The translations under genes were made by a program, and so were the position numbers. Source: Acidaminococcaceae bacterium (lineage in GTDB: Bacteria > Bacillota > Negativicutes > Acidaminococcales > Acidaminococcaceae). From it: a DNA stretch of 38,348 bases. Below, piece by piece: positions 13,116-34,553 of this stretch; the first letter of the stretch is position 1; every line of letters begins with the position of its first letter. Where the stretch lies: assembly GCA_022484685.1 (NCBI GenBank), contig JAKVKY010000011.1:1-38348 (forward strand), in the 5' to 3' direction. A model generated the notes under the pieces. The model was not told the origin of the DNA, did not search any database, and saw only the letters and a list, made by a program, of their open reading frames with translations.

Positions 13116-14117
13116 GTGACTTTGTCCTTCTTGTTAGGTGAGCATATCATTGAAACGAAAGACCAGCAGGAAATGGTGGGAATCCTGGGCCGTAATGACG
13201 AATTCTTACGTATCATCCAGGGACTTTATCCGGAGACAACGATGGTAGCACGGGGCACCAAAGTTGTTTTCAGCGGAGAAGACCGGGATGTGGAAGAATT
13301 GGAACAACTTTTTGGAGAATTGCTGTTCCTGTATCGCCAGGGACTGCCGTTGACTACGCATGACGTGCGTTACAGTGTCTACATGGTGAAAAATAAAAGC
13401 CTGGACCGGCTGCATGACATGTACGCTGATACGATCATCGTCACGCATCATGGACGGCGCGTGAATGCCAAGACGCTGGGTCAGTGGGATTATGTGCAGA
13501 CTATCAGGAAGAACTTTATCACTTTTGGTATCGGACCCGCCGGTACCGGCAAAACTTATCTGGCGGTGGCACTGGCGGTTACCGCCCTCAAGAACCGGGA
13601 TGTGGAAAGAATTATCCTGACCCGTCCGGCGGTGGAAGCCGGGGAAAAGCTGGGCTTTTTACCGGGCGATTTGCAGGAAAAGGTAGATCCGTATCTGCGG
13701 CCTTTGTATGATGCCTTGTATGATATGCTGGGCAGTGAGACAGTGCAGAAATTCCTGGATAAAGGGACCATCGAAGTAGCACCGCTGGCATATATGCGCG
13801 GCCGGACCCTGAATGATTCTTTTATCATTTTGGATGAGGCTCAGAACTCTACGCCGGAACAGATGAAGATGATCTTAACCCGTTTCGGGTTCGGTTCCAA
13901 GATGGTAGTGACCGGCGACGTGACTCAGATAGATTTGCCCAGCGGCAAGAATAGCGGTTTGCGTGAAGCCTCTCAAATCTTGAAACTGGTTCCGGGCATC
14001 GGTATGATTACCTTTGATGAGAAAGATGTGGTGCGTCACGAGATTGTGGCCTCCATCATCAAAGCTTACGAAAAATATGAACAAGGTACGGGCAAGGGTA
14101 TAGGAGCAAGAAGATGA
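13116..14117 (+). CDS. phoH: PhoH family ATPase
   Basis: The 333-residue PhoH protein has Walker A GPAGTGKT (140-147) and Walker B FIILDEAQN (236-244), with the family segment TRPAVEAGEKLGFLPGDL between them. PhoH-family proteins are ATPases thought to act on RNA, and their genes usually sit next to ybeY and era, as here. The start is taken as GTG at 13116, 5 bp after AAAGG; a TTG at 13122 is possible. The N-terminal region is of normal length. It overlaps the next gene by ATGA. Confidence 0.95.
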   Translation: MTLSFLLGEHIIETKDQQEMVGILGRNDEFLRIIQGLYPETTMVARGTKVVFSGEDRDVEELEQLFGELLFLYRQGLPLTTHDVRYSVYMVKNKSLDRLHDMYADTIIVTHHGRRVNAKTLGQWDYVQTIRKNFITFGIGPAGTGKTYLAVALAVTALKNRDVERIILTRPAVEAGEKLGFLPGDLQEKVDPYLRPLYDALYDMLGSETVQKFLDKGTIEVAPLAYMRGRTLNDSFIILDEAQNSTPEQMKMILTRFGFGSKMVVTGDVTQIDLPSGKNSGLREASQILKLVPGIGMITFDEKDVVRHEIVASIIKAYEKYEQGTGKGIGARR

Positions 14118-15010
14118 ATATTACCTATAATGACGAGCAGCGCCGGATAAAAGTTCCGGCCGCCGCCAAGAAATTATTACGGGAGGCTTTGCAGGCAGTA
14201 GCAGAACTGCACGCCTTACCGGATAACACGGAAGTGGATATTACCATCGTGGATGATAAGGCCATCCACCAGATTAACAAGGAATACCGGCAGGTAGACA
14301 GACCTACCGATGTCCTATCGTTTGCTTTTGATGAGAGCGCAGATGAGGAACCGGAAATTCATGATAACCCGGAGGCACATCTGCTGGGGAATATTATCAT
14401 CTCAGCCGAAACGGCAAGGCGCCAGGGTCAGGAATATGGCCACGGGTTTAACCGGGAACTGGCTTACCTGGCCGTGCATGGCTGTCTGCATCTTTTAGGC
14501 TACGATCATATGCAGCCCAAGGAAAAAGCCGTGATGCGCGCGGAAGAAGAAAAGGCGCTGCAGAAAATTCAATTGTCTCAGCAGGACCTGGCTGCGGCAG
14601 CGGTAGATGCTAAAACTGTAAAGAAGTTAGTGCGCCTGGCTAAAAAAGCCAGGGAAAATGCGTACACACCCTACTCCAAATTTAAGGTGGGGGCAGCAGT
14701 ACTCACGCACAGTGGTACAACTTTTACCGGCTGCAACGTGGAAAATTCTTCGTACGGGTTGACCTGTTGCGCGGAACGCAATGCCATTTTTAACGCCGTG
14801 GGTGCCGGAGCCCAGGATTTATACTGCTTATGCGTCCTGGCAGAGACCAAGGAACCGGTAGCTCCCTGCGGCGCCTGCCGCCAGGTGATGAGCGAGTTCG
14901 GCGTGGAGTGGGTCATCATGGCTAACACGGCCGGTGCCACCAAGATCGTGCCTTTGGCGGATTTATTACCGTATGGTTTTACCAAACAAGCTTTAAAAAA
15001 AGTTAGATAA
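14114..15010 (+). CDS. ybeY: Fused YbeY endoribonuclease and cytidine deaminase
   Basis: One uninterrupted 298-codon frame holds two enzymes. Residues 1 to about 150 are YbeY, the zinc RNase of 16S rRNA 3'-end maturation and ribosome quality control, with His122, His126 and His132 in HGCLHLLGYDH. Residues about 167-298 are a cytidine deaminase (Cdd type, pyrimidine salvage) with Cys219-Ala-Glu221 in CCAERNA and Cys252/Cys255 in PCGACRQ. The linker (about 150-166) is rich in Gln and Ala. Both zinc sites are intact. In many Firmicutes ybeY, dgkA and cdd are separate neighbours before era; here dgkA is absent and the outer two are joined. The ATG overlaps phoH by 4 bp. Confidence 0.95.
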   Translation: MNITYNDEQRRIKVPAAAKKLLREALQAVAELHALPDNTEVDITIVDDKAIHQINKEYRQVDRPTDVLSFAFDESADEEPEIHDNPEAHLLGNIIISAETARRQGQEYGHGFNRELAYLAVHGCLHLLGYDHMQPKEKAVMRAEEEKALQKIQLSQQDLAAAAVDAKTVKKLVRLAKKARENAYTPYSKFKVGAAVLTHSGTTFTGCNVENSSYGLTCCAERNAIFNAVGAGAQDLYCLCVLAETKEPVAPCGACRQVMSEFGVEWVIMANTAGATKIVPLADLLPYGFTKQALKKVR

Positions 15011-23854: not shown

Positions 23855-24604
23855 TTGTATCTCTTGTTCTTTGCTTATTTCGTCATTGGAGCTGTCATTG
23901 GCAGTTTCCTGAATGTCTGTATATATCGTTTGCCGGCAGGTAAGTCTATCGTGACCCCGCCGTCAGCCTGCGGCAGTTGCGGGCACAGGCTGGGCGCCCT
24001 GGATATGATCCCGGTATTCAGCTATATTTTCTTAAGGGGCAGATGCCGCTACTGTGGCGCGCCTTATAGCTGTCGTTATGCCATCATCGAATTTCTGACC
24101 GGGTTGTTGTTCATGTCCTGCGGCTTATATTATTTTCCCGGTCTCAATATGGTACTGGCCTGGATTTTTATTGCCTGTCTGGTTGTGGAAGCCTTTATCG
24201 ACCTGGACCACCAGATCATCCTGGATGAGATTTTGCTCCTGATGGTACCGCTGGGCCTTGTTTATGCCTACTTTAACTATCCTTCCCTGAAAGAGTCTTT
24301 GTACGGTGCGCTGTTTGCCGGCGGCTTGATGCTGATTATCTTTTTAGTCAGCCGGGGCGGCATGGGGGCAGGAGATGTGAAGCTGGCCTGCGTCCTCGGT
24401 CTCTGGCTCGGCTTAAAAGCAGCCATTGTCTGTATCTTCCTGGCCTTTATCCTGGGCGGGATTATCGGGGTGGGACTGCTGGTAACCAAGCTTAAAACGC
24501 GCAAAGATCCTATTCCTTTTGGACCGTTCTTATGTTTCAGTGCTTATATCTCTTTGTTATTTTCTCCGTATCTGATTTATTTTTATTGGAGTTTATTCGC
24601 ATAA
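23855..24604 (+). CDS. pilD: Type IV prepilin peptidase / N-methyltransferase
   Basis: This 249-residue inner-membrane aspartyl protease cuts and methylates prepilins or type II secretion pseudopilins. Zinc cysteines Cys39/Cys42 (CGSC) and Cys64/Cys67 (CRYC) sit in the cytoplasmic loop with PVFSYIFLRGRCRYCG. The catalytic aspartates are in FIDLDHQIILDE (Asp116 or Asp118) and GAGDVKLA (Asp174). About seven hydrophobic segments are visible. The start is TTG after GGGGAGGTG. The pilus assembly genes pilM, pilN and pilO follow, from a separate putative promoter. Confidence 0.93.
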   Translation: MYLLFFAYFVIGAVIGSFLNVCIYRLPAGKSIVTPPSACGSCGHRLGALDMIPVFSYIFLRGRCRYCGAPYSCRYAIIEFLTGLLFMSCGLYYFPGLNMVLAWIFIACLVVEAFIDLDHQIILDEILLLMVPLGLVYAYFNYPSLKESLYGALFAGGLMLIIFLVSRGGMGAGDVKLACVLGLWLGLKAAIVCIFLAFILGGIIGVGLLVTKLKTRKDPIPFGPFLCFSAYISLLFSPYLIYFYWSLFA

Positions 24605-24617
24605 AAAAGGTTATTTA

Positions 24618-24626
24618 TGGTATAAT
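24618..24626 (+). promoter_or_regulatory. Extended -10 promoter of pilMNO
   Basis: TGGTATAAT gives TG-n plus a perfect TATAAT (24621-24626) in the gap after pilD. TTCGCA at 24596-24601 is a poor -35 at 19 bp. Transcription would start about 60 bp before pilM. Confidence 0.5.
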
Positions 24627-24694
24627 GATTACATATATGTGTGATTTTCTTCCTTACATCTTAGCCGCTATACTTGGGGAAAGTAGGTATACTC

Positions 24695-25768
24695 ATGGAT
24701 TTAAAGAAAACAGTTACCAAATTTTTTGAAGACGTACCTAAGAGTGTTATCGGTATCGATATCGGCTCTGGTAATATCAAAATTGCCCAGGTGGACCTGA
24801 GCGGAAAAAGGCCGATGGTGACTAATGCTGCCAGTGCAGAACTGCCGGTGGACATGGTCAACAATGGTTTTATCCGCATGGCAGCGCAAATGACCGGTTT
24901 CCTGAAAAAAATGATTGAGAAAAATGGTTTTTCGGCCAAGTACGTAGTCTTTTCTATCGGCGGCCGGAATGCGTTCGTGCGTGAGATTACCGTACCGCCC
25001 ATGCCTGATGAGGAAATGCGGCAGGCGGCTATCTGGGATGCAGGGCAGTATGTGCCTTACGAAGCCAACAGTTACTATACGGACGCGGCTAAGTTCGGTA
25101 AACCGGATGAAGCTGGCCAGCAGCCCATGCTCCTGGTGGCAGCACCTAAAGAACTGGTGGATACGATGCTGGAAATCGGCGATGGTCTGGGCCTGATTCC
25201 TCTTTCGGTGGATATCGAGGTGCTTTCCTGTTACCGGGTGCTGAAAGAACAACTAACAGATTTTGTGCTCCTGGATATCGGCAGGGGTTATTCTTTGATT
25301 ACGATTTTCCAGGGTGGAGCGCCGGTGGCGCAGAGAAGTATTCCCCACGGCAGCCAGATGTTTGATTCGGCTATTGCCGATAGCGTGGGCTGTTCCCTGG
25401 AGGAAGCGGAGCAGACTAAGAAAGAGACCAATATCCTGGGCGCGGAAGACGAAGCGGTGCATGAAAAGTATAAGGCACTGTTTGACGCCGTGGATAACAT
25501 GGATAAAGAAGTACACCGTACATGTGAATATTACCGTATCAATAAGAAAGAGGCTGTGTTTACCGATTTGATCCTGGCTGGCGGCGGTGCGGCCATGCAG
25601 GGACTGGAGAAATATCTGAACCGGAATAATGATTTAAAGGTTTCCACCCTGGATGTACGGGCGGTCGTTGATTTTTCGGGCAAGATTCCTCAGGAAAAAC
25701 GTAAGGAACTGGCTTCTATTTGCGCGGTAGCCATTGGCGCTGCCTTAGCAGGAGGTGAAGCCAAATGA
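24695..25768 (+). CDS. pilM: Type IV pilus assembly actin-like ATPase PilM
   Basis: The 357-residue cytoplasmic protein has the actin-like/FtsA fold: VIGIDIGSGNIKIAQVDL at about 18-35 (phosphate 1), LLDIGRGYSLITIF (phosphate 2) and LILAGGGAAMQGLEKYL (adenosine motif). PilM binds the N-terminus of PilN and anchors the alignment complex of the pilus machine. The ATG at 24695 is preferred over an in-frame TTG at 24674, which has no ribosome-binding site. It overlaps pilN by ATGA. Confidence 0.92.
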   Translation: MDLKKTVTKFFEDVPKSVIGIDIGSGNIKIAQVDLSGKRPMVTNAASAELPVDMVNNGFIRMAAQMTGFLKKMIEKNGFSAKYVVFSIGGRNAFVREITVPPMPDEEMRQAAIWDAGQYVPYEANSYYTDAAKFGKPDEAGQQPMLLVAAPKELVDTMLEIGDGLGLIPLSVDIEVLSCYRVLKEQLTDFVLLDIGRGYSLITIFQGGAPVAQRSIPHGSQMFDSAIADSVGCSLEEAEQTKKETNILGAEDEAVHEKYKALFDAVDNMDKEVHRTCEYYRINKKEAVFTDLILAGGGAAMQGLEKYLNRNNDLKVSTLDVRAVVDFSGKIPQEKRKELASICAVAIGAALAGGEAK

Positions 25769-26319
25769 TCAAGATTAACCTGTTACCTGCGGAACGGCAG
25801 AAACGGGAATTCCCGTTGTGGAAAGTCTATCGTTTCTGTACCTATATCTTTTTAGGGTTAACCCTGTTATTGTGGGCTTACAATCTGGGTATGTATAAGT
25901 ATATCAACTCCAAGATCACGGACGTGGACAGCCAGATTGCCCAGGTTAAAGTCTGGGAGGACCGCTATAATAAGGCCCAGACCGAAAATGCCGATATCAG
26001 GAAACGTGATTCTATGTTAGCGGAACTGAGCAAGAACCGGATCATGTGGAGCCGTTTTGTAGCGGAGCTGGGGAATGTGACCCCGGCAGGCTGCTGGCTG
26101 GATAATATTAAGCAGACCGCCACCAAGACCGGCGATAGCCTGACCATCAAGGGCGGAGCCATGAATATGGATACCGTGCTTGATTATACGTCCAGGCTGC
26201 AATCACTGCCTAATGTTACGGATGTACAGATCGTGGATACGGCACAAGCGAAAAAGAATAATGTGCCTTATATTAATTACACCTTACAGTTACAGAGAAG
26301 CGGGGTGGCTAAAAAATGA
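25765..26319 (+). CDS. pilN: Type IV pilus inner-membrane protein PilN
   Basis: PilN (184 residues) opens with the PilM-binding signature MIKINLLPAERQK, followed by one membrane helix (about 23-43) and a coiled-coil plus ferredoxin-like periplasmic domain. VTPAGCWLDNIKQTA and TVLDYTSRLQSLPNVTDVQI are typical. It lies between pilM and pilO with ATGA overlaps on both sides, so expression is probably coupled. Confidence 0.92.
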   Translation: MIKINLLPAERQKREFPLWKVYRFCTYIFLGLTLLLWAYNLGMYKYINSKITDVDSQIAQVKVWEDRYNKAQTENADIRKRDSMLAELSKNRIMWSRFVAELGNVTPAGCWLDNIKQTATKTGDSLTIKGGAMNMDTVLDYTSRLQSLPNVTDVQIVDTAQAKKNNVPYINYTLQLQRSGVAKK

Positions 26320-26990
26320 AATTAAATTTTAAACAGCCGGCCTTATCACAAAACAGCAAATACTCTCTGTTCCTGTTAGGCTCCTTTGTGCTTTTCATCC
26401 TGGTGCTGCTCTTTGCGGTGTCGCCGTTGTATCAGGATAACCAGAAGAATAGTCTGGTCCTGACGAGTAAGCGGCAAAAACTGGCGGCATATCAGACTTT
26501 TGCCCAACAGAATAAGGACTATGAGACTTTTGCCACTACTCAGAGAGTTAAACTGCAGGAAGCGCAGAAGCATATTCCGGATCAGGTTTCTATCCCGGAT
26601 GTCCTGCGTGATTATTCCGGCAAGGCGGAACATACGGGAGTTTTCATCACTAATATCAAGACGCCGGCTCCGGCAGAGGTGGTCAAGGAAGGCAATGCTT
26701 TTGCCGTACCTTTGAAAGTAAAATTAACCGGCAATTATTATAAGATCGTGGATTTCCTGCAGCAGGTGGAAGCGGGCGACCGTTATGCCAAGCTGCAGCA
26801 GGTGGGCATTACTGGCAACGAGGCCAACGGGGACTTGACCATGGACACGCAGCTCACGGTCTATGCCCTGAAGAAGGAACTGAAAGGCACGCCGACGCTG
26901 CCTGTGGAACAAAAGAGCGAGGCTACAGGACTGGAAAGAGTACGGGAAAGAGATAAGGCCAACATGGAAGCTCTCTCCGGTAATAAGTGA
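26316..26990 (+). CDS. pilO: Type IV pilus inner-membrane protein PilO
   Basis: PilO (224 residues) has one membrane helix (about 17-36), a coiled coil (about 40-90) and a C-terminal ferredoxin-like domain with LTGNYYKIVDFLQQVEAGDRY. It forms a heterodimer with PilN in the alignment complex. The tail (about 190-224) is charged and probably disordered. It is the last gene of this transcript: a terminator follows, and no pilP or pilQ is present. Confidence 0.9.
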   Translation: MKLNFKQPALSQNSKYSLFLLGSFVLFILVLLFAVSPLYQDNQKNSLVLTSKRQKLAAYQTFAQQNKDYETFATTQRVKLQEAQKHIPDQVSIPDVLRDYSGKAEHTGVFITNIKTPAPAEVVKEGNAFAVPLKVKLTGNYYKIVDFLQQVEAGDRYAKLQQVGITGNEANGDLTMDTQLTVYALKKELKGTPTLPVEQKSEATGLERVRERDKANMEALSGNK

Positions 26991-26999
26991 TGTGTATCT

Positions 27000-27036
27000 A
27001 AAAACTGCAGGCGCAAGTTTCGCTTTGCAGTTTTTT
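27000..27036 (+). terminator. Rho-independent terminator after pilO
   Basis: AAAACTGCA (27001-27009) pairs with TGCAGTTTT (27026-27034), with a GC-rich inner part, and runs into T. It separates pilMNO from the lar genes and shows that the open frame reaching back to 26992 is not the true larB start. Confidence 0.88.
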
Positions 27037-27087
27037 GTACATCAGCTTCCTCTTGTAGTGAAAAGTTTAAAGAGTGTAGGGAGTATT

Positions 27088-27846
27088 ATGCAGACCAAAT
27101 ATGAGAAGGCCATCTTAGAAATTTTACAGGACTATCAGGCGCACAAGCTTACGGAGACGGAAGCCGTCGCCAGCGTGAAAGCCCTTAATGTGCTGGATTT
27201 GGGTTTTGCCACCCTGGATCAGAGCCGTTCCCTGCGGCAGGGTTTCCCGGAAGTTGTGTACTGTGCGGGGAAGACTATCGAGCAGGTGGTCCTCATCATG
27301 GAAAAACTGTTAGAGCAGCATGATAATGTGCTGGGGACCAGGGCTACGGCCGCTATGTATGCGGCAGTTAAAGCCAAGGTACCGGATGCGGTTTATGATG
27401 AGATGGCCAGGATGATCATGGTGGAACGGCAGCCGCTGCCCCAGGATGCCGACAGGGTTATCGCCGTGGTCACGGCTGGCACCAGTGATATTCCGGTGGC
27501 CGAAGAAGCGGCTTTGACGGCTGCCATCATGGGCAATAAGGTCCAGCGGATTTATGATGTGGGCGTGGCAGGATTAAACAGGCTGCTGGCACGGGTGGAG
27601 GATTTGCGCAAAGCCAATGTCATTATCGTGATTGCCGGGATGGAAGGCGCGTTAGCCAGTGTGGTAGGCGGCCTGGTAGCTAAACCGGTGCTGGCGGTAC
27701 CGACCAGCGTAGGCTATGGTGCTAATTTTCAGGGTATGTCCGCACTTTTGGGCATGCTGAACAGTTGCAGCGGCGTGGCCGTGGTCAATATTGATAATGG
27801 TTTTGGTGCCGGCCGGATCGCCAGCATCATCAATCATCTGAGGTGA
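27088..27846 (+). CDS. larB: LarB, P2CMN synthase of the nickel-pincer cofactor
   Basis: LarB (252 residues) carboxylates nicotinic acid adenine dinucleotide to pyridinium-3,5-biscarboxylic acid mononucleotide, the first step to the NPN cofactor of lactate racemase. The C-terminal half is the PurE-like AIRC domain: VVTAGTSDIPVAEEAALTA and NVIIVIAGMEGALASVVGGL. The start is ATG at 27088, 4 bp after AGGGAG; this gives the usual family length. larC follows 4 bp downstream. No larE or larA is in the window. Confidence 0.93.
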   Translation: MQTKYEKAILEILQDYQAHKLTETEAVASVKALNVLDLGFATLDQSRSLRQGFPEVVYCAGKTIEQVVLIMEKLLEQHDNVLGTRATAAMYAAVKAKVPDAVYDEMARMIMVERQPLPQDADRVIAVVTAGTSDIPVAEEAALTAAIMGNKVQRIYDVGVAGLNRLLARVEDLRKANVIIVIAGMEGALASVVGGLVAKPVLAVPTSVGYGANFQGMSALLGMLNSCSGVAVVNIDNGFGAGRIASIINHLR

Positions 27847-27850
27847 AATC

Positions 27851-29182
27851 GTGAAGACACTTTACATTGAAGCTTTTGCCGGGATCAGCGGCAACATGCT
27901 TGTGGGAGCTTTGCTGGATTTAGGTTTTCCCTTTGCCGTTTTGCAGCAGGAAGTGGCCAAGCTCCATTTAGGTGCGTATCGGTTAATCCTGGAAAAAGTT
28001 ACGAAATGCGGGATTGCCGCTACCTACTTTAACGTGCAGCTGCCAGAGGAACATGAACACGAACCTGGTCACGAGCATGCACATGGACACGAACACGAAC
28101 ATGAACACGAACATGAGCACGAGCACGAACATGGTCACGAACATGGGCCTGCATATGAGCAGCAAATTACCGCGGCGACAATAGCACCGCACCATGAGCA
28201 TCGCAATTATGCGGATATCCTGCATATCCTGCAGGCTTCCGACTTGGAGGTTAAGGTACAGCAAGAGGCGGCAGCAGTTTTTAAGGCCATCGCCGTGGCG
28301 GAAGCCAAGGTGCATGGCACGACCATAGAAAAAATTCATTTCCATGAAGTCGGCGCTATTGATACCATCATTGATGTGGTTGGTTGTATCTTAGGTTTGC
28401 ACTATCTGCACATTGAAAAAATTTATATCTCTACCGTTACCACGGGACAAGGATTTGTCCAGTGCGCCCACGGTTTGATGCCGGTACCGGCGCCGGCGAC
28501 GGCGGAACTTTTACAGGGACTGCGGACCCAAAAAGGCAGCGAGTCCAGGGAAATGACTACGCCTACAGGGGCGGCCCTGGCCAGGACGCTGATGACGCAG
28601 GTCGCGGAGATACCGGCGGCGTTTACCTCCCGGCAGATTGGTTATGGCGCCGGAACCTGGGAACTTAAGCTGCCCAACGTTTTGCGGGTCACTTTAGGCG
28701 ACAGTGCGGACGCGGCGCCGGATACGGCCACACAAACGCTGCATATCTTAGCTTGCAACGTGGATAATCTTAATCCGGAAATTTATCCCTATGTGCTGGA
28801 ACGCGCTTTGCAATTAGGGGCCCTGGATGCCTGGACTACGCCTATCGTCATGAAAAAAGGCCGCCCGGCCCAGGAACTGTCGCTTTTGACCACGGCGCAG
28901 CATATCCTGCCTTTGCAAAAACTATTATTTACGGAAACTACGACCCTGGGTATCCGGGATACGGTTGTACAAAGGACGTCCTTGACCAGGAAACTGGTGC
29001 CGGTCGCCACCCGTTGGGGAAAAATACAGGTCAAGGTGGCGGCTTTGGCGCAGACCGTGGTCAACGTGGCTCCGGAATTTGAAGAGTGCAAGGCCGTGGC
29101 ACAAAAAGAGGGCCTGCCTTTAAAGCAGGTGATGGCGGTAGTTTTACAAAACTACTATCAGGGCCGGAACGATGAAGATTGA
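27851..29182 (+). CDS. larC: LarC, nickel insertion enzyme of the nickel-pincer cofactor
   Basis: LarC (443 residues) is the CTP-dependent cyclometallase that puts nickel into the pincer cofactor. The N-terminus TLYIEAFAGISGNMLVGALLDLG and the segment KIHFHEVGAIDTIIDVVG are hallmarks. Residues 66-98 are almost pure His and Glu with a few Gly, encoded by a GARCAY-type hexanucleotide repeat, and probably store or deliver nickel. The frame is continuous, unlike Lactobacillus plantarum, where LarC1 and LarC2 are joined by frameshifting. The start is GTG at 27851 after AGGTGA. It overlaps rnhC by 11 bp. Confidence 0.93.
   Translation: MKTLYIEAFAGISGNMLVGALLDLGFPFAVLQQEVAKLHLGAYRLILEKVTKCGIAATYFNVQLPEEHEHEPGHEHAHGHEHEHEHEHEHEHEHGHEHGPAYEQQITAATIAPHHEHRNYADILHILQASDLEVKVQQEAAAVFKAIAVAEAKVHGTTIEKIHFHEVGAIDTIIDVVGCILGLHYLHIEKIYISTVTTGQGFVQCAHGLMPVPAPATAELLQGLRTQKGSESREMTTPTGAALARTLMTQVAEIPAAFTSRQIGYGAGTWELKLPNVLRVTLGDSADAAPDTATQTLHILACNVDNLNPEIYPYVLERALQLGALDAWTTPIVMKKGRPAQELSLLTTAQHILPLQKLLFTETTTLGIRDTVVQRTSLTRKLVPVATRWGKIQVKVAALAQTVVNVAPEFEECKAVAQKEGLPLKQVMAVVLQNYYQGRNDED
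28046..28144 (+). repeat. Hexanucleotide repeat encoding a His-Glu tract in LarC
   Basis: About 100 bp of degenerate GA(A/G)CA(T/C) units encode Glu-His dipeptides (residues 66-98 of LarC). Third positions vary, so the tract is maintained as protein sequence rather than being a freshly expanded exact repeat. Confidence 0.85.
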
Positions 29183-30122
29183 GCTGGAAAGTTATCTAAA
29201 GCAGCTTAAAGAAAGTCTGGCCGCCAGTGGCGCCCAGCTGACGGAAAAACCTTTGAATTACGGCCGTCAGCTGATTTTAACCAGGGGCGCGGAGAAAGTG
29301 GTCCTGTGTGTCTATAACGGCAAGAAGGGACTGAAACTTGTCTGGAGCCAGCCGGACAATACTTTAAAGCAAAATTGTCAGGCACTCCTGGCTGAAGAAA
29401 CAGTGGCTGTACCTGCACAGACTAGTACCGGTCCGGGCGTCCTCTTTGCCGGGGAGCCGGGATTTGAGGACTGGTGGGCGGGCAGCGATGAATCGGGCAA
29501 GGGCGATTATTTCGGGCCGCTGGTAGTGGCTGCGGTCTGTCTGCAAAAAACAGCAGCCGCAGTTTTAATAGCTGCCGGCGTGCGCGATTGTAAGGAATTA
29601 ACCGATAAGAAGATCCTGGCCCTGGCAGAATTAATTAAACAGACCACACCGTTTTATGCGGTCCTGGTCCTGAAACCCGCGGCGTACAATAAACGTTACG
29701 CAGAGGTAAAGGCCCAGGGGCTTAACCTGAACGCGCTGCTGGCCAGCGGACATTATCAGGCGCTAAGCCAGGTGCTGCATAAACAGCAGCGCTGCCAGTG
29801 GGTCTTGATTGATCAGTTTACACCGTCTCTAACGCTGGTACGGCGTCTGCAGCAGGATTTTCCCGGTTTGCAAACCGTACGGCAGCAACCCAAAGCTGAG
29901 GCGGATATCGCGGTGGCTGCAGCATCCGTGTTAGCCCGGGCCGCTTTTTTGCAGGGCTTGCAGGAACTGGCACAGGCGGCAGGTGTGGCTGAACTGCCCA
30001 AGGGGGCAGGCCCCCTGGTAACAGAGCAGGCCTCCCACTTGGTTAAGGAGTTAGGCAGAGAGGCACTGGTCAACTTTGTGAAGGTACATTTTAACAATAC
30101 TCGGGCTTTAATGCTGGATTAA
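29172..30122 (+). CDS. rnhC: Ribonuclease HIII
   Basis: The 316-residue enzyme cuts the RNA strand of RNA-DNA hybrids. The N-terminal TBP-like substrate-binding domain covers about 1-90 (YGRQLILTRGAEKVVLCVYNGKKG region). The catalytic domain begins with GSDESGKGDYFGPLVV (Asp106, Glu107), which is the HIII/HII signature, and continues with the LIDQF acidic segment. The length and N-terminal domain favour HIII over HII. It starts within the end of larC. Confidence 0.92.
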   Translation: MKIELESYLKQLKESLAASGAQLTEKPLNYGRQLILTRGAEKVVLCVYNGKKGLKLVWSQPDNTLKQNCQALLAEETVAVPAQTSTGPGVLFAGEPGFEDWWAGSDESGKGDYFGPLVVAAVCLQKTAAAVLIAAGVRDCKELTDKKILALAELIKQTTPFYAVLVLKPAAYNKRYAEVKAQGLNLNALLASGHYQALSQVLHKQQRCQWVLIDQFTPSLTLVRRLQQDFPGLQTVRQQPKAEADIAVAAASVLARAAFLQGLQELAQAAGVAELPKGAGPLVTEQASHLVKELGREALVNFVKVHFNNTRALMLD

Positions 30123-30160: not shown

Positions 30161-31018
30161 GTGAAAGCACTAATTGTCAATGCGGATGACTTTGGTTTGG
30201 CAGAATCTATTAATAGGGGTATAATTAAAGGTCATAGGGAGGGATTTATCACCAGCACCTCCCTTATGTGCAGCGCGCCCGCTTTTAAAGACGCGGTAGC
30301 ACTGGCCCAAGAGAATCTCCGGCTGGGGGTAGGTATCCATCTGACCCTGGTAGGCGGCGTGGCCCCGGTCCTGCCGCCGGAACAGGTGCCGACCCTGGTG
30401 GATGCCAGAGGCGTCTTTCCGGAGAACTATGTGCTTTTTGCCAAAAAGCTTTACACGGGCGGCGTTAAGCTCTCTGAGTTAAAAGCGGAACTCACGGCGC
30501 AGATCAGCCGTGGTTTAGCGACAGGTCTTCCTTTTACACACTTAGACAGTCACCAGCATCTGCATGTTTTACCGGGAGTAAGTGCGGTGGTCCTGCAGTT
30601 ATGCCGGGAATTTAAGTTTAAGGCGGTACGCGTTCCCGGAGAAGCTTATCTGTGGAACGGCGGTTTTAAGAGCGGTCCGGTGCGGATCCTGGGCAAGTGC
30701 GGCTTAACCTTTTGTGCTTCCCTGTTTCGGCAGCAGCTATCCGCTTATGGGCTGGTGGCGCCGGATCATTTCTTCGGCATGCTGGCCGGCGGCAACCTGG
30801 ATGAACGGCTGGTGGGCAATATCCTGACAGGTTTACCGGACGGGGTCAGCGAGATCATGACCCATCCCGGTCTGGATGCGGCCAGCCTGGCTCAGAAATT
30901 TACCTGGGGTTACCATTGGGAACAGGAGTTACAGGCTTTTCTTGCCCCGGCGAACAAAGAGAAGCTGACGGCAAATAAAATACAGTTAATGAATTTTGGT
31001 GATTTGACTAATGCCTAG
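30161..31018 (+). CDS. YdjC/ChbG family carbohydrate deacetylase (HpnK-like)
   Basis: The 285-residue protein has the YdjC fold and metal site: NADDFG (Asp9/Asp10), His60 in VGIHLTLVGG, and His131/His133 in HLDSHQHLHVLPG. Family members remove acetyl groups from N-acetylated sugars: ChbG acts on chitobiose and HpnK on GlcNAc-hopanoid. No signal peptide is seen, so it should act in the cytosol on a soluble or lipid-linked sugar. The start is GTG at 30161 after GAGGAG. It overlaps the next gene by 8 bp and heads a four-gene envelope module. Confidence 0.88.
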   Translation: MKALIVNADDFGLAESINRGIIKGHREGFITSTSLMCSAPAFKDAVALAQENLRLGVGIHLTLVGGVAPVLPPEQVPTLVDARGVFPENYVLFAKKLYTGGVKLSELKAELTAQISRGLATGLPFTHLDSHQHLHVLPGVSAVVLQLCREFKFKAVRVPGEAYLWNGGFKSGPVRILGKCGLTFCASLFRQQLSAYGLVAPDHFFGMLAGGNLDERLVGNILTGLPDGVSEIMTHPGLDAASLAQKFTWGYHWEQELQAFLAPANKEKLTANKIQLMNFGDLTNA

Positions 31019-32006
31019 AAAAGTATTATACAGGTTCATAGCTCTCTTTATCTTTGTAGTAGCTATTTCTGTAGGTGTAATTTATTTTACATTTGATATA
31101 CGGGCTTTGGAGTATTTGACCATGTTTGAACCATGGTCTATTCTGCTTGCCCTGGGCTGTCTGTTTATCGGCTTATTCTTTGACGCCCTGCGCCTGGTTA
31201 CCCTGACGAAGATCACGGGAGAAAAATTGCCGGCCCTGGATGTGATTAAGGTGGTCCTGAGTAATTACTTCCTGGCTCTGGTAACGCCGGGAGCAACAGG
31301 CGGCGCGGTAGCCCAGATCATGTTTATGAAAAAAGCCGGCATTCCGGTAGCAAAATCCACGGTGGTCATCTTTGTCCGTACCATCATGTCCATCTTGTTC
31401 TTAATTATCGTAGTGCCTTTTTTCCTGAATGTGGACAGCGCCGCAAAAGGCTGGGTCCCTATGTATGTGGTCGTGACGGTGTCGTTGATGTTTACGGCCA
31501 TGCCGATTGCGGCGGTGTATTTAATGCATACCCAGTATCCCCAGCGCATCATCTATTCCTGCACCAGACATGTTTCCCACGAACTGCGCCGCAAATGTTT
31601 TTTATGGTACAGCGACTTTAAGGAAGCCTCTTTTATCATGGGGCAGCGGCCGGGGATGGTGCTCAGGGCCTTTCTGGAATCGGGCTTAAGCCTGGTCTTT
31701 ATCTATGCCACGGTGCCGGCTTATTTTACCGGCCTGCATTTTGATTTTAACTTATTACAGGTTATGGGCAGGATGCTGCTCTTGAACCTGGTCCTGTATT
31801 TTTCACCCACCCCGGGTGGTTCCGGGATTGCGGAAGCCGGTTTCGTCGTGCTGTTCACGAAACTGGTTCCCAGCGGTACGGTGGGCATCTTAGCGGTCTT
31901 ATGGCGTTTTACCGCGGAGTATATTCCGTTTTTCCTGGGTGCCGTGATTACTTTGCGTACTTTCGGGTCCAGCATCTTATCCATAACTGAAGGGAGAGGC
32001 AAATAA
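31011..32006 (+). CDS. UPF0104 / lysylphosphatidylglycerol synthase TM-type membrane protein
   Basis: The 331-residue protein has about eight membrane segments and the family pattern: VVLSNYFLALVTPGATGGAVAQ near 85-106, and STPGGSG-like FSPTPGGSGIAEAGF near 263-277. This family includes the membrane part of MprF and HpnL, which move lipids or lipid-linked sugars across the membrane. It has no cytosolic lysyl-transfer domain, so flipping is the more likely job. It lies between a deacetylase and an epimerase gene, with an 8-bp overlap upstream. Confidence 0.87.
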   Translation: MPRKVLYRFIALFIFVVAISVGVIYFTFDIRALEYLTMFEPWSILLALGCLFIGLFFDALRLVTLTKITGEKLPALDVIKVVLSNYFLALVTPGATGGAVAQIMFMKKAGIPVAKSTVVIFVRTIMSILFLIIVVPFFLNVDSAAKGWVPMYVVVTVSLMFTAMPIAAVYLMHTQYPQRIIYSCTRHVSHELRRKCFLWYSDFKEASFIMGQRPGMVLRAFLESGLSLVFIYATVPAYFTGLHFDFNLLQVMGRMLLLNLVLYFSPTPGGSGIAEAGFVVLFTKLVPSGTVGILAVLWRFTAEYIPFFLGAVITLRTFGSSILSITEGRGK

Positions 32007-32010
32007 ACTC

Positions 32011-32940
32011 ATGAAGATTTTGATCACAGGCGGCGCCGGTTTTATCGGCTCCCATTTATTACAGCGCTTGCATGGTAAACCCGGCTTACAGCTGACGGTG
32101 GTGGATAATTTGGATACCGGTTGCCGGGACTATGTGCCGGCCGATGTGGAATTTATCAAGGCCGATATCCGTTCTCAGGAACTAGCCCACTGTTTTGCCA
32201 GTCACCATTTCGACGCGGTTGTGCATCTGGCCGCTCAGACCATGGTGCCTTTTTCTATGGACCATCCCCGGGAGGATTGTGACGTCAACCTGCTGGGACT
32301 GATTAATGTCCTGGAATGCTGCCGGAAATATCAGGTAGGGTCTATCACCTTTTCGTCCAGCGCGGCGGTGTACGGGGATAATGAGCATGTACCCTTACGG
32401 GAAACAGAGCCGCTTGTGCCCACTTCTTTTTACGGGATTACCAAGATGACCACGGAACATTATCTGCGCGTCTATCATGAAGTATATGGCCTTAACACCA
32501 CGGTCTTCCGTTTTGCCAATGTGTACGGGGAACGGCAGGGCGCCGGCGGTGAAGGCGGCGTGGTCAGCATCTTCTGCAAATTATTAGCGGAGGACAAGCC
32601 GGTGACGATTTACGGTGACGGGGAACAGACCCGGGACTTTGTTTATGCGGGGGACATTGCCAGGGCCCTGGAAGCCAGTTTGTCCTTGCAGGGCTTCCAT
32701 GTGCTGAATGTGTCCACGACTCAGGAAACTTCTATTAACCAGCTGGTGGCGTATTTTGAAAAGGCGGCCGGCAAGAAACTGGTCGTCCGGTATGCCGCTA
32801 AACGGGAAGGCGATATTTACAGGTCGTTCCTGGATAACCGGGAGCTGCTGAAGGTATTGCAACTGCAACCGGAGATGGCTTTGCCCCAGGGCATACTGCA
32901 GACTTATAACTGGTACAGGCAGGAGAAGGGTGGTCACTGA
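32011..32940 (+). CDS. NAD-dependent nucleotide-sugar epimerase/dehydratase (extended SDR)
   Basis: The 309-residue protein has the Rossmann motif TGGAGFIG (6-13) and the catalytic Tyr141-x3-Lys145 (YGITK), with the Ser-rich FSSSAAVYG near 114-122. It is closest in pattern to UDP-glucose 4-epimerase-like enzymes. The exact sugar cannot be read from sequence; TRDFVYAGDIARA near 207-219 is typical of GalE and UDP-glucuronate decarboxylase relatives. Its stop shares one base with the next gene (TGATG). Confidence 0.9.
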   Translation: MKILITGGAGFIGSHLLQRLHGKPGLQLTVVDNLDTGCRDYVPADVEFIKADIRSQELAHCFASHHFDAVVHLAAQTMVPFSMDHPREDCDVNLLGLINVLECCRKYQVGSITFSSSAAVYGDNEHVPLRETEPLVPTSFYGITKMTTEHYLRVYHEVYGLNTTVFRFANVYGERQGAGGEGGVVSIFCKLLAEDKPVTIYGDGEQTRDFVYAGDIARALEASLSLQGFHVLNVSTTQETSINQLVAYFEKAAGKKLVVRYAAKREGDIYRSFLDNRELLKVLQLQPEMALPQGILQTYNWYRQEKGGH

Positions 32941-34496
32941 TGCATAACAATATTACCAGGAATGCTTTTTTTGTCCTCCTGATAATCGTAGGTTTTAATA
33001 TTCTTTTCGGGATTGGCGGTTTCCCGCTGACCGATCCCGATGAACCGGCTTATGCGGAAACGGCCAGGGAGATGCTGGTCTTTAAAGATTATCTTTCACC
33101 CAGGATCTTTAACGAATTCTGGTATGATAAGCCGCCCATGTATTACTGGCTGGTAGCGGCCGCTTTTAAAATTTTTGGTATCAGTGAGTTTGCCGCCCGT
33201 TTACCGGCGGCGCTGATGGGTATTTTCACGGTGCTGGCCGTGTATTTTTCCACGACCAAGTTATTTAATGAACGGGCCGGCTTCTGGGCCGGTATCGTGC
33301 TGGGCACCTGCATCAATCTTTTTTATATGGGGAAGGCCTCAGTCACGGATACGACCCTGCTCTTTTTTATGACCAGCGCCTTGCTCTGTTTCCTGCACGA
33401 GCAGTACTGGGTCATGTATATCTGCATGGGCCTGGCCACTTTGACCAAGGGACCTATCGGGATTGTTTTCCCCGGCGCTATCATTTTCCTCTACCTGGTG
33501 TGCCGCGGCGAATGGCGCCGTCTGCTGAAGATGCACATCCTGCCCGGTATCATCCTCTGCCTTTTGGTCACGGGACCCTGGTATTATTTTATGTACCAGA
33601 TCCACGGGATGGATTTCATCAACACCTTCCTGGGTTTCCATAATTTAACCCGTTTTACCACTCCGGAGCATCCAACCCGGGTGCTGTGGTATTACTATTT
33701 ACCGGTGATCGTCTTAGGTATTTTCCCCTGGACGGGTATCTTGCTGCAGTCCATTAAGGCTACGGTTACGGACAGCCGCAGCAGCGATTTACGCTACCTG
33801 GTCTTCATGCAGGTCTGGTGGATCTTCGTCCTGGTGTTCTTTACTATTTCCAAGACTAAGCTGATCTCGTATATCTTACCGCTCTTCCCGGCGCTGGCCA
33901 TCATGATCGGCTGGAACATCGACCGGATGATGCGGGAAAACGGCGGCCGCTATTTAAGCTGGGCGGTTGGCAGCGGTCTCATGTTCCTGGTGCTGGGTAT
34001 CGGCTGGATGGTAGGCGGACGCTACGTGCCGGAGTTAACCTTTGGCGGTTATATCTTAGGCGGTCTGACCTTATTGCTGGGCCTGGCCATCGTGGTGGCC
34101 CTGGTCGTGTACAGGGATGCCTCCCTGGGAGCCTGGCTCCATGTGGCTACCGGCGTGCTGACCATGTTTATCGCGTTAGCGTTCCTGTTTCCCAATATTC
34201 AGGACGATTTTAGCGTCCGGACGATTGCCAGGGCTTTTGTCTCTCAGGGTTTAACAGGACGTACTTTGTACGTGGATAAGTTTTTGCGGCCGGGCTTTAT
34301 GTTTTATGCCCATGTTCCGGGTATCGAAGTTACCACGGCCGATGACAAGACTATTGCAGCCCTCAGGAACGATACGGGGCCGAAATACGCGGTGATGCGC
34401 CGCTCCCTGTATAACCGGGCCAAAGAAGACATGAACGCCGGCGACTGGCAGGTGCTGGCCGAAACTAAGGAAATTTGTATTTACGGTACCAAATAA
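32940..34496 (+). CDS. ArnT-like GT83 glycosyltransferase
   Basis: The 518-residue protein has about twelve membrane segments and the ArnT/PMT features: DPDEPAYAETAREML (32-46, acidic catalytic pair region) and FWYDKPPMYYWL (60-71). ArnT takes a sugar from undecaprenyl phosphate and puts it on lipid A at the periplasmic face. The acceptor here is unknown; lipid A or another outer-envelope glycan is plausible in a diderm Firmicute. It is the last gene of the module and ends at a shared terminator. No arnC-like undecaprenyl-phosphate sugar transferase is in the window. Confidence 0.88.
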   Translation: MHNNITRNAFFVLLIIVGFNILFGIGGFPLTDPDEPAYAETAREMLVFKDYLSPRIFNEFWYDKPPMYYWLVAAAFKIFGISEFAARLPAALMGIFTVLAVYFSTTKLFNERAGFWAGIVLGTCINLFYMGKASVTDTTLLFFMTSALLCFLHEQYWVMYICMGLATLTKGPIGIVFPGAIIFLYLVCRGEWRRLLKMHILPGIILCLLVTGPWYYFMYQIHGMDFINTFLGFHNLTRFTTPEHPTRVLWYYYLPVIVLGIFPWTGILLQSIKATVTDSRSSDLRYLVFMQVWWIFVLVFFTISKTKLISYILPLFPALAIMIGWNIDRMMRENGGRYLSWAVGSGLMFLVLGIGWMVGGRYVPELTFGGYILGGLTLLLGLAIVVALVVYRDASLGAWLHVATGVLTMFIALAFLFPNIQDDFSVRTIARAFVSQGLTGRTLYVDKFLRPGFMFYAHVPGIEVTTADDKTIAALRNDTGPKYAVMRRSLYNRAKEDMNAGDWQVLAETKEICIYGTK

Positions 34497-34553
34497 AAAA
34501 TCCCTCCGTCAGGAAAGTCTGCAGCTGCAGCTTGAGGCGGAGGGATTTTTACA
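34492..34553. terminator. Bidirectional terminator between the GT83 gene and pepF
   Basis: TCCCTCCG (34501-34508) pairs with CGGAGGGA (34538-34545). A tracts on the left and T tracts on the right make it work for both strands. Inside is a 12-bp palindrome CTGCAGCTGCAG (34519-34530). It serves convergent genes. Confidence 0.9.

Follow-up and report, generated by a model that had tools for sequence, protein, structure and literature searches.

A predicted NaxD/Lgm-type hexosamine modification operon with a candidate MprF-like flippase in an Acidaminococcaceae bacterium

Introduction

NaxD, an enzyme of the YdjC superfamily, is described as deacetylating undecaprenyl phosphate-linked N-acetylgalactosamine (Und-P-GalNAc) in Francisella (PMC11279074) and as contributing galactosamine (GalN) to lipid A in Acinetobacter (PMC6635527). 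ArnT-family proteins act in GalN addition in Francisella and in glucosamine (GlcN) addition in Bordetella (PMC5377068), and in B. pertussis the presence of GlcN on lipid A requires lgmA, lgmB and lgmC (PMC4993483). Here, a 38,348-nucleotide stretch of DNA from an Acidaminococcaceae bacterium (the window, which is the complete contig C11 of genome G000) was analysed, and a four-gene unit within it encoding a YdjC-type deacetylase, a UPF0104 membrane protein, an epimerase and an ArnT-like transferase on balance appears, from its family assignments, to specify a hexosamine modification of the Francisella NaxD/FlmF2/FlmK or Bordetella LgmABC type with a dedicated MprF/GpgF-like flippase. The Lgm proteins are a family 2 glycosyltransferase (GT2), an ArnT-like protein and a deacetylase, with lgmD reported not to be essential. 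To our knowledge no protein has been identified for the flipping step of either the Francisella or the Bordetella pathway.

Likened by family, the system under study has in common with Francisella FlmF2-NaxD-FlmK, which adds GalN to lipid A, a YdjC-superfamily deacetylase, an ArnC-like GT2 and an ArnT-like transferase, as far as these are described in the sources cited (PMC11279074, PMC8149597, PMC5377068), but differs in that the GT2 is unlinked, the operon additionally contains genes for a UPF0104 flippase-like protein and an epimerase, and the host is a member of the Negativicutes. On the same basis it shares with the GlcN-adding LgmA/LgmB/LgmC system an ArnT-family transferase (PMC5377068). 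GpgDF is a known case of a deacetylase paired with a flippase of the UPF0104 family (PMC12713373), and in both GpgD-GpgF and HexD-HexF a hexosamine-lipid deacetylase accompanies a UPF0104 or MprF-like protein whose flippase role is still unproven (PMC12713373, PMC10128005). This pairing is what the window shares with P. aeruginosa GpgSDF and C. difficile HexSDF, whereas those systems produce phosphatidylglycerol or diradylglycerol glycolipids, use other deacetylase families and have operons without an ArnT-like transferase. The enterobacterial arnBCADTEF pathway for 4-amino-4-deoxy-L-arabinose (Ara4N) has the ArnT-like final step and a polyprenyl-linked sugar in common with the window, but no ArnB-type aminotransferase was found in the window's genome, and the flippase type differs from ArnEF. 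The closest precedents are those of Francisella and Bordetella, which had been missed in an earlier note on this DNA, and not the hopanoid clusters to which that note had pointed.

Results and discussion

Products of the four genes

The four forward-strand open reading frames (ORFs) were verified exactly as the earlier note had placed them, with an 8-bp overlap, a 4-bp gap and a 1-bp overlap in order and a likely terminator at the end. The first, ydjC (30161-31018, 285 aa, GTG start), encodes a predicted ydjC/hpnK-type (NaxD-like) N-acetylhexosamine deacetylase (PF04794, 230 bits) related to the solved structures 2i5i, 8jqe and 7vi8. Its metal-binding and catalytic motif is intact, with DDFG, H60 and the HLDSHQHLH residues all present, and D9, D10, H60, H127, D129, H131, H133 and H135 are invariant across 12 relatives. 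The protein has no clear membrane helix, only one borderline hydrophobic stretch, and should therefore work at the cytoplasmic face, ahead of flipping.

The second gene, flp (31011-32006, 331 aa), encodes a UPF0104 membrane protein (PF03706, LPG_synthase_TM, 123 bits) that is a candidate flippase for a lipid-linked sugar. A sequence search of the PDB with the Flp profile gave no match. However, when the predicted model (mean predicted local distance difference test score 81.7) was compared with known structures, it aligned with six MprF structures in the region of the flippase, with Z scores of 20.1-22.5 over 264-289 residues (root-mean-square deviation 3.9-5.2), the next best, unrelated chain reaching only Z 6.0. 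As modelled, Flp has the fold of the MprF flippase, although a fold alone shows no function.

The third gene, epi (32011-32940, 309 aa), encodes a predicted nucleotide-sugar 4-epimerase of the short GalE type (PF01370, 197 bits) with the motifs GGAGFIG and YGITK; its best PDB match is the UDP-glucose 4-epimerase 4zrm, others being 6wjb and 6wj9. The Ser of GDIYRS, the gatekeeper residue, would allow UDP-Glc and UDP-GlcNAc alike. A second, regular GalE-type gene lies elsewhere in the genome, at G000:C15, so the housekeeping function probably does not fall to the copy in the operon.

The product of the last gene, arnT-like (32940-34496, 518 aa), is a predicted polyprenyl-phosphate-sugar transferase of the GT83/PMT_2 type (PF13231, 80 bits). 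Its sole PDB match is ArnT 5ezm (E value 8.5e-44, or 3.1e-54 with the family profile), which bears out the ArnT-like label given to it earlier. Four ArnT residues are essential in B. cenocepacia, Y43, K69, R254 and E493 (PMC5377068), three of which align with Y38, K64 and R238, while a counterpart of the C-terminal E493 could not be placed. A second, solitary ArnT-like paralogue is encoded at G000:C8:39551 (L033, 6510-8123, forward strand), is approximately 40% identical over the N-terminal half and carries DNVES where DPDEP is expected; a protein similar to this paralogue is the product of the final gene of a Propionispora operon (L154).

A priming transferase on another contig

The earlier note had reasoned that a priming transferase must lie elsewhere, and one of the four GT2-family genes in the window's genome, at G000:C21:12427-13356, fits that role as the only ArnC/GtrB-type (polyprenyl-phosphate) GT2 found in the genome. 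Its best solved relatives are GtrB (5ekp, 269 bits) and ArnC (9hwj, 190 bits), and two hydrophobic stretches are present at the C-terminus. It is a lone gene, adjoining what by eye is a likely cell-wall hydrolase gene, yet its product shares 57% identity with the GT2 of a Propionispora sp. 2/2-37 operon with the order ydjC-GT2-epi-arnT-arnT (L154) and 56% with that of a Selenomonas operon, arnT-GT2-ydjC (L183). Conservation was assessed in 59 genomes of the family Acidaminococcaceae, within which g2, g15 and g17 are groups, and in 120 Negativicutes genomes. A ydjC gene lies beside an ArnC/GtrB-type GT2 in 19 of the 120 (in nine beside the orthologue, in ten beside a paralogue). Among 72 ydjC loci of the genome collection, such a GT2 is found on the same strand at most three genes away in 15, including records titled Acidobacteria, Aminicenantes, Elusimicrobia and Magnetococcales; flp is nearby in 11 and none has flp and GT2 together, which fits the earlier description of a flippase gene without a priming enzyme.

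Presence of the GT2 orthologue also follows that of ydjC across the Negativicutes sample, with both in 97 genomes, ydjC only in six, GT2 only in four (all at most 84% complete) and neither in 13, an agreement of 110/120. The corresponding Fisher p value of 6e-10 overstates independence, the genomes being related, although the sample spans 31 families. Within the Acidaminococcaceae, g15 lacks both genes, and in g17 the two are nearly always absent. At three g17 loci (L041, L042 and L046) an arnT orthologue is found away from the lar operon, adjoining a different ArnC/GtrB-type GT2, approximately 37% identical to that of the window's genome.

Conservation of the gene order

Relatives of ydjC and flp were found in 41 and 53 of the 59 family genomes, respectively, and 41 have an orthologue of the arnT-like gene that is at least 51% identical. 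In the neighbourhoods examined, several genera of the family have larB-larC-rnhC-ydjC-flp-epi-arnT in this order, at about 50-65% protein identity. Beyond the family, Pelosinus (L148) has ydjC-flp-epi-arnT a short distance after larB-larC, and Propionispira (L144) has ydjC-flp-arnT. The wider sample has 103 genomes with ydjC, 95 with flp and 85 with the two together; in 58 of these 85, of which 48 are outside the family, ydjC lies immediately 5' of flp in the same orientation. Retention of the arrangement in other genera of the family and in Pelosinus, and of the ydjC-flp pair so widely, indicates that it is more than chance.

In relatives the four genes are often, but not invariably, found together. 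Group g2 has ydjC, flp-epi and the arnT-like genes at separate places, and ydjC is absent from g15 and from all g17 genomes except one. Some units that are complete in other respects (L040, L049 and L050, and also L054, whose contig begins at flp) lack the epimerase gene, which is therefore accessory. Where ydjC is absent from g15 and g17 genomes, the copy of the arnT-like gene that follows flp looks as if it is decaying while flp is intact: in L132-L134 it is truncated (229-249 aa), and in L055 and L072 it lacks the DPDE and YDKPP motifs.

Proposed pathway and alternatives

From the observed families, motifs, conservation, linkage and co-occurrence we infer a pathway in which each catalytic step, the identity of the sugar, its flipping, the choice of lipid A as acceptor and any influence on polymyxin sensitivity are to be read as predictions. 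The epimerase, dispensable in some relatives, would set the sugar at C4 (UDP-GlcNAc/UDP-GalNAc), and the unlinked GT2 would join the N-acetylhexosamine to undecaprenyl phosphate. The acetyl group would then be taken off by the cytoplasmic YdjC protein, and the resulting Und-P-hexosamine flipped to the periplasmic side by the MprF-like Flp. Finally, the ArnT-like transferase would attach the hexosamine to an acceptor at the surface, for which a lipid A phosphate is the likeliest candidate, and so reduce the negative charge. The organism, a Gram-negative Firmicute of gut type, encodes LpxC (330 bits, G000:C33) and is therefore a lipid A-making member of the Negativicutes. The core idea of the earlier note, a unit for an undecaprenyl-linked amino sugar, is supported and largely right.

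Several observations weigh against this pathway. The ArnT-like protein scores 155.2 bits on the ArnT equivalog model NF009784, far below the cut-off of 567, and because of this it is not claimed to be ArnT, only, on sequence grounds, to work like ArnT/FlmK. Both ydjC and the GT2 gene are widespread in the class, and their co-occurrence is not phylogenetically independent. Retention of flp in the g15 and g17 genomes without ydjC indicates that it is not strictly bound to a deacetylated sugar, and Flp may also accept sugars that are still acetylated. In Veillonella and other members of the class, ydjC-flp pairs occur with no arnT-like gene next to them, and the window's genome (1.72 Mb) is only 81.6% complete.

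The same pathway could instead deliver the amino sugar to protein or to a core or capsule glycan, in a PgfS/PgfM- or PMT-like manner. The PMT_2 family is broad, the ArnT equivalog cut-off is missed and the best NCBIfam model for the GT2 is PgfS, a protein-glycosylation-associated transferase, but at 280 bits this score is likewise under its cut-off (500). Given also that the sole solved relative found for the transferase is the lipid A enzyme ArnT and that the Y, K and R essential there align, an acceptor other than lipid A is considered unlikely. The GpgDF/HexDF arrangement of a deacetylase with a UPF0104/MprF-like flippase (PMC12713373, PMC10128005), together with the MprF flippase fold of Flp and the Veillonella loci, would suit action of YdjC and Flp on a membrane phospholipid or glycolipid, such as the GlcN-phosphatidylglycerol of GpgSDF or the aminoglycolipid of HexSDF, with the arnT-like gene belonging to a separate pathway that shares the operon. 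GpgD is however assigned to COG3233 in its paper and not to the YdjC family, Flp reaches only 42.9 bits on the GpgF GlcN-phosphatidylglycerol flippase model NF053789 (cut-off 320) and the recurrent partners of ydjC are arnT-like genes and ArnC/GtrB-type GT2 genes, the known acceptor of the latter being polyprenyl phosphate. A role of this kind is judged improbable for the window, although in those lineages where no arnT-like gene adjoins ydjC-flp, the pair could act for a phospholipid.

Similarity of the last gene product to ArnT would also be expected of a true Ara4N pathway acting on lipid A. ArnD and YdjC belong to different deacetylase families, and the ArnB-type family PF01041 was not found in the window's genome at its present completeness, in nine g2 genomes or in 37 of the 59 family genomes, a set that includes the 100%-complete, module-bearing genomes G011 and G057. 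An Ara4N pathway is accordingly very improbable and, lacking an ArnB-type aminotransferase in the genome, was rejected in general. A hopanoid-modification cluster (HpnK, HpnL, HpnA) has almost no probability and was likewise rejected. The point in common with hpn clusters is that the YdjC protein passes the HpnK model TIGR03473 narrowly (237.2 against a cut-off of 232.6 bits), so that of the three hopanoid-type labels in the earlier note only HpnK stands; the epimerase scores 43.3 bits on HpnA model TIGR03466 (cut-off 367.65), and the HpnL model gave no match. A squalene-hopene cyclase above cut-off was found in none of the 59 family genomes, in line with its absence as previously noted, and the HpnK name is for that reason misleading in this context.

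For the NaxD/Lgm-type pathway itself, the novelty would lie in the dedicated MprF-like flippase, in a priming transferase encoded away from the operon and in the occurrence of such a pathway across the Negativicutes. A wider proposal, advanced tentatively and with considerable doubt, is that Flp is a dedicated Und-P-hexosamine flippase and that the class has a class-wide NaxD-type pathway, of which ydjC-flp is the most widely kept core, so that many gut and oral members might constitutively carry a free-amine hexosamine on lipid A. If the proposed pathway is true, it would predict amino-sugar modification of lipid A in Phascolarctobacterium, Veillonella, Selenomonas and relatives, which are common Gram-negative-type gut and oral bacteria, and would bear on intrinsic resistance to polymyxin and host peptides and on TLR4 recognition, the surface being made less negatively charged by the same logic as in Francisella and Bordetella. 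The MprF-like Flp would be a concrete candidate for the mover of lipid-linked hexosamine, and names of the type 'HpnK, hopanoid biosynthesis' in bacteria without the hopanoid cyclase would be corrected as likely misannotations. A literature search for amino sugars on the lipid A of Negativicutes, Pectinatus or Phascolarctobacterium yielded nothing usable.

Transcription unit and flanking genes

A perfect 13-base inverted repeat followed by a T run at 34496-34550 (AAAAATCCCTCCG...CGGAGGGATTTTT) is likely a two-way terminator for the arnT-like gene and the convergent pepF; it was read from the sequence, its loop being too long for the automatic scan. Directly upstream of ydjC in the ORF list are larB, larC and rnhC (26992-30122, forward strand; starts at 26992, 27851 and 29172, rnhC encoding RNase HIII), the functions of which are unrelated to those of the four genes. 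A gap of 38 bp separates rnhC from ydjC. Since these three genes are on the same strand and conserved with the four, the transcription unit may extend beyond the four genes described in the earlier note and take in larB-larC-rnhC; promoter-like matches occur only at chance level (7 observed, 7.1 expected), so that the unit may begin further upstream. The larC gene (27851-29182, forward strand) is one ORF with no frameshift and contains a long tract rich in His and Glu, HEHEHEHEHEHEHEHGHEHG, that might bind nickel. Immediately 5' of larB, genes for a prepilin peptidase and PilM/PilN/PilO-like proteins were assigned by eye (23855-26990, forward strand). Further upstream, a 298-aa ORF (14114-15010, forward strand) reads by eye as an in-frame fusion of YbeY and cytidine deaminase, which are normally separate neighbours.

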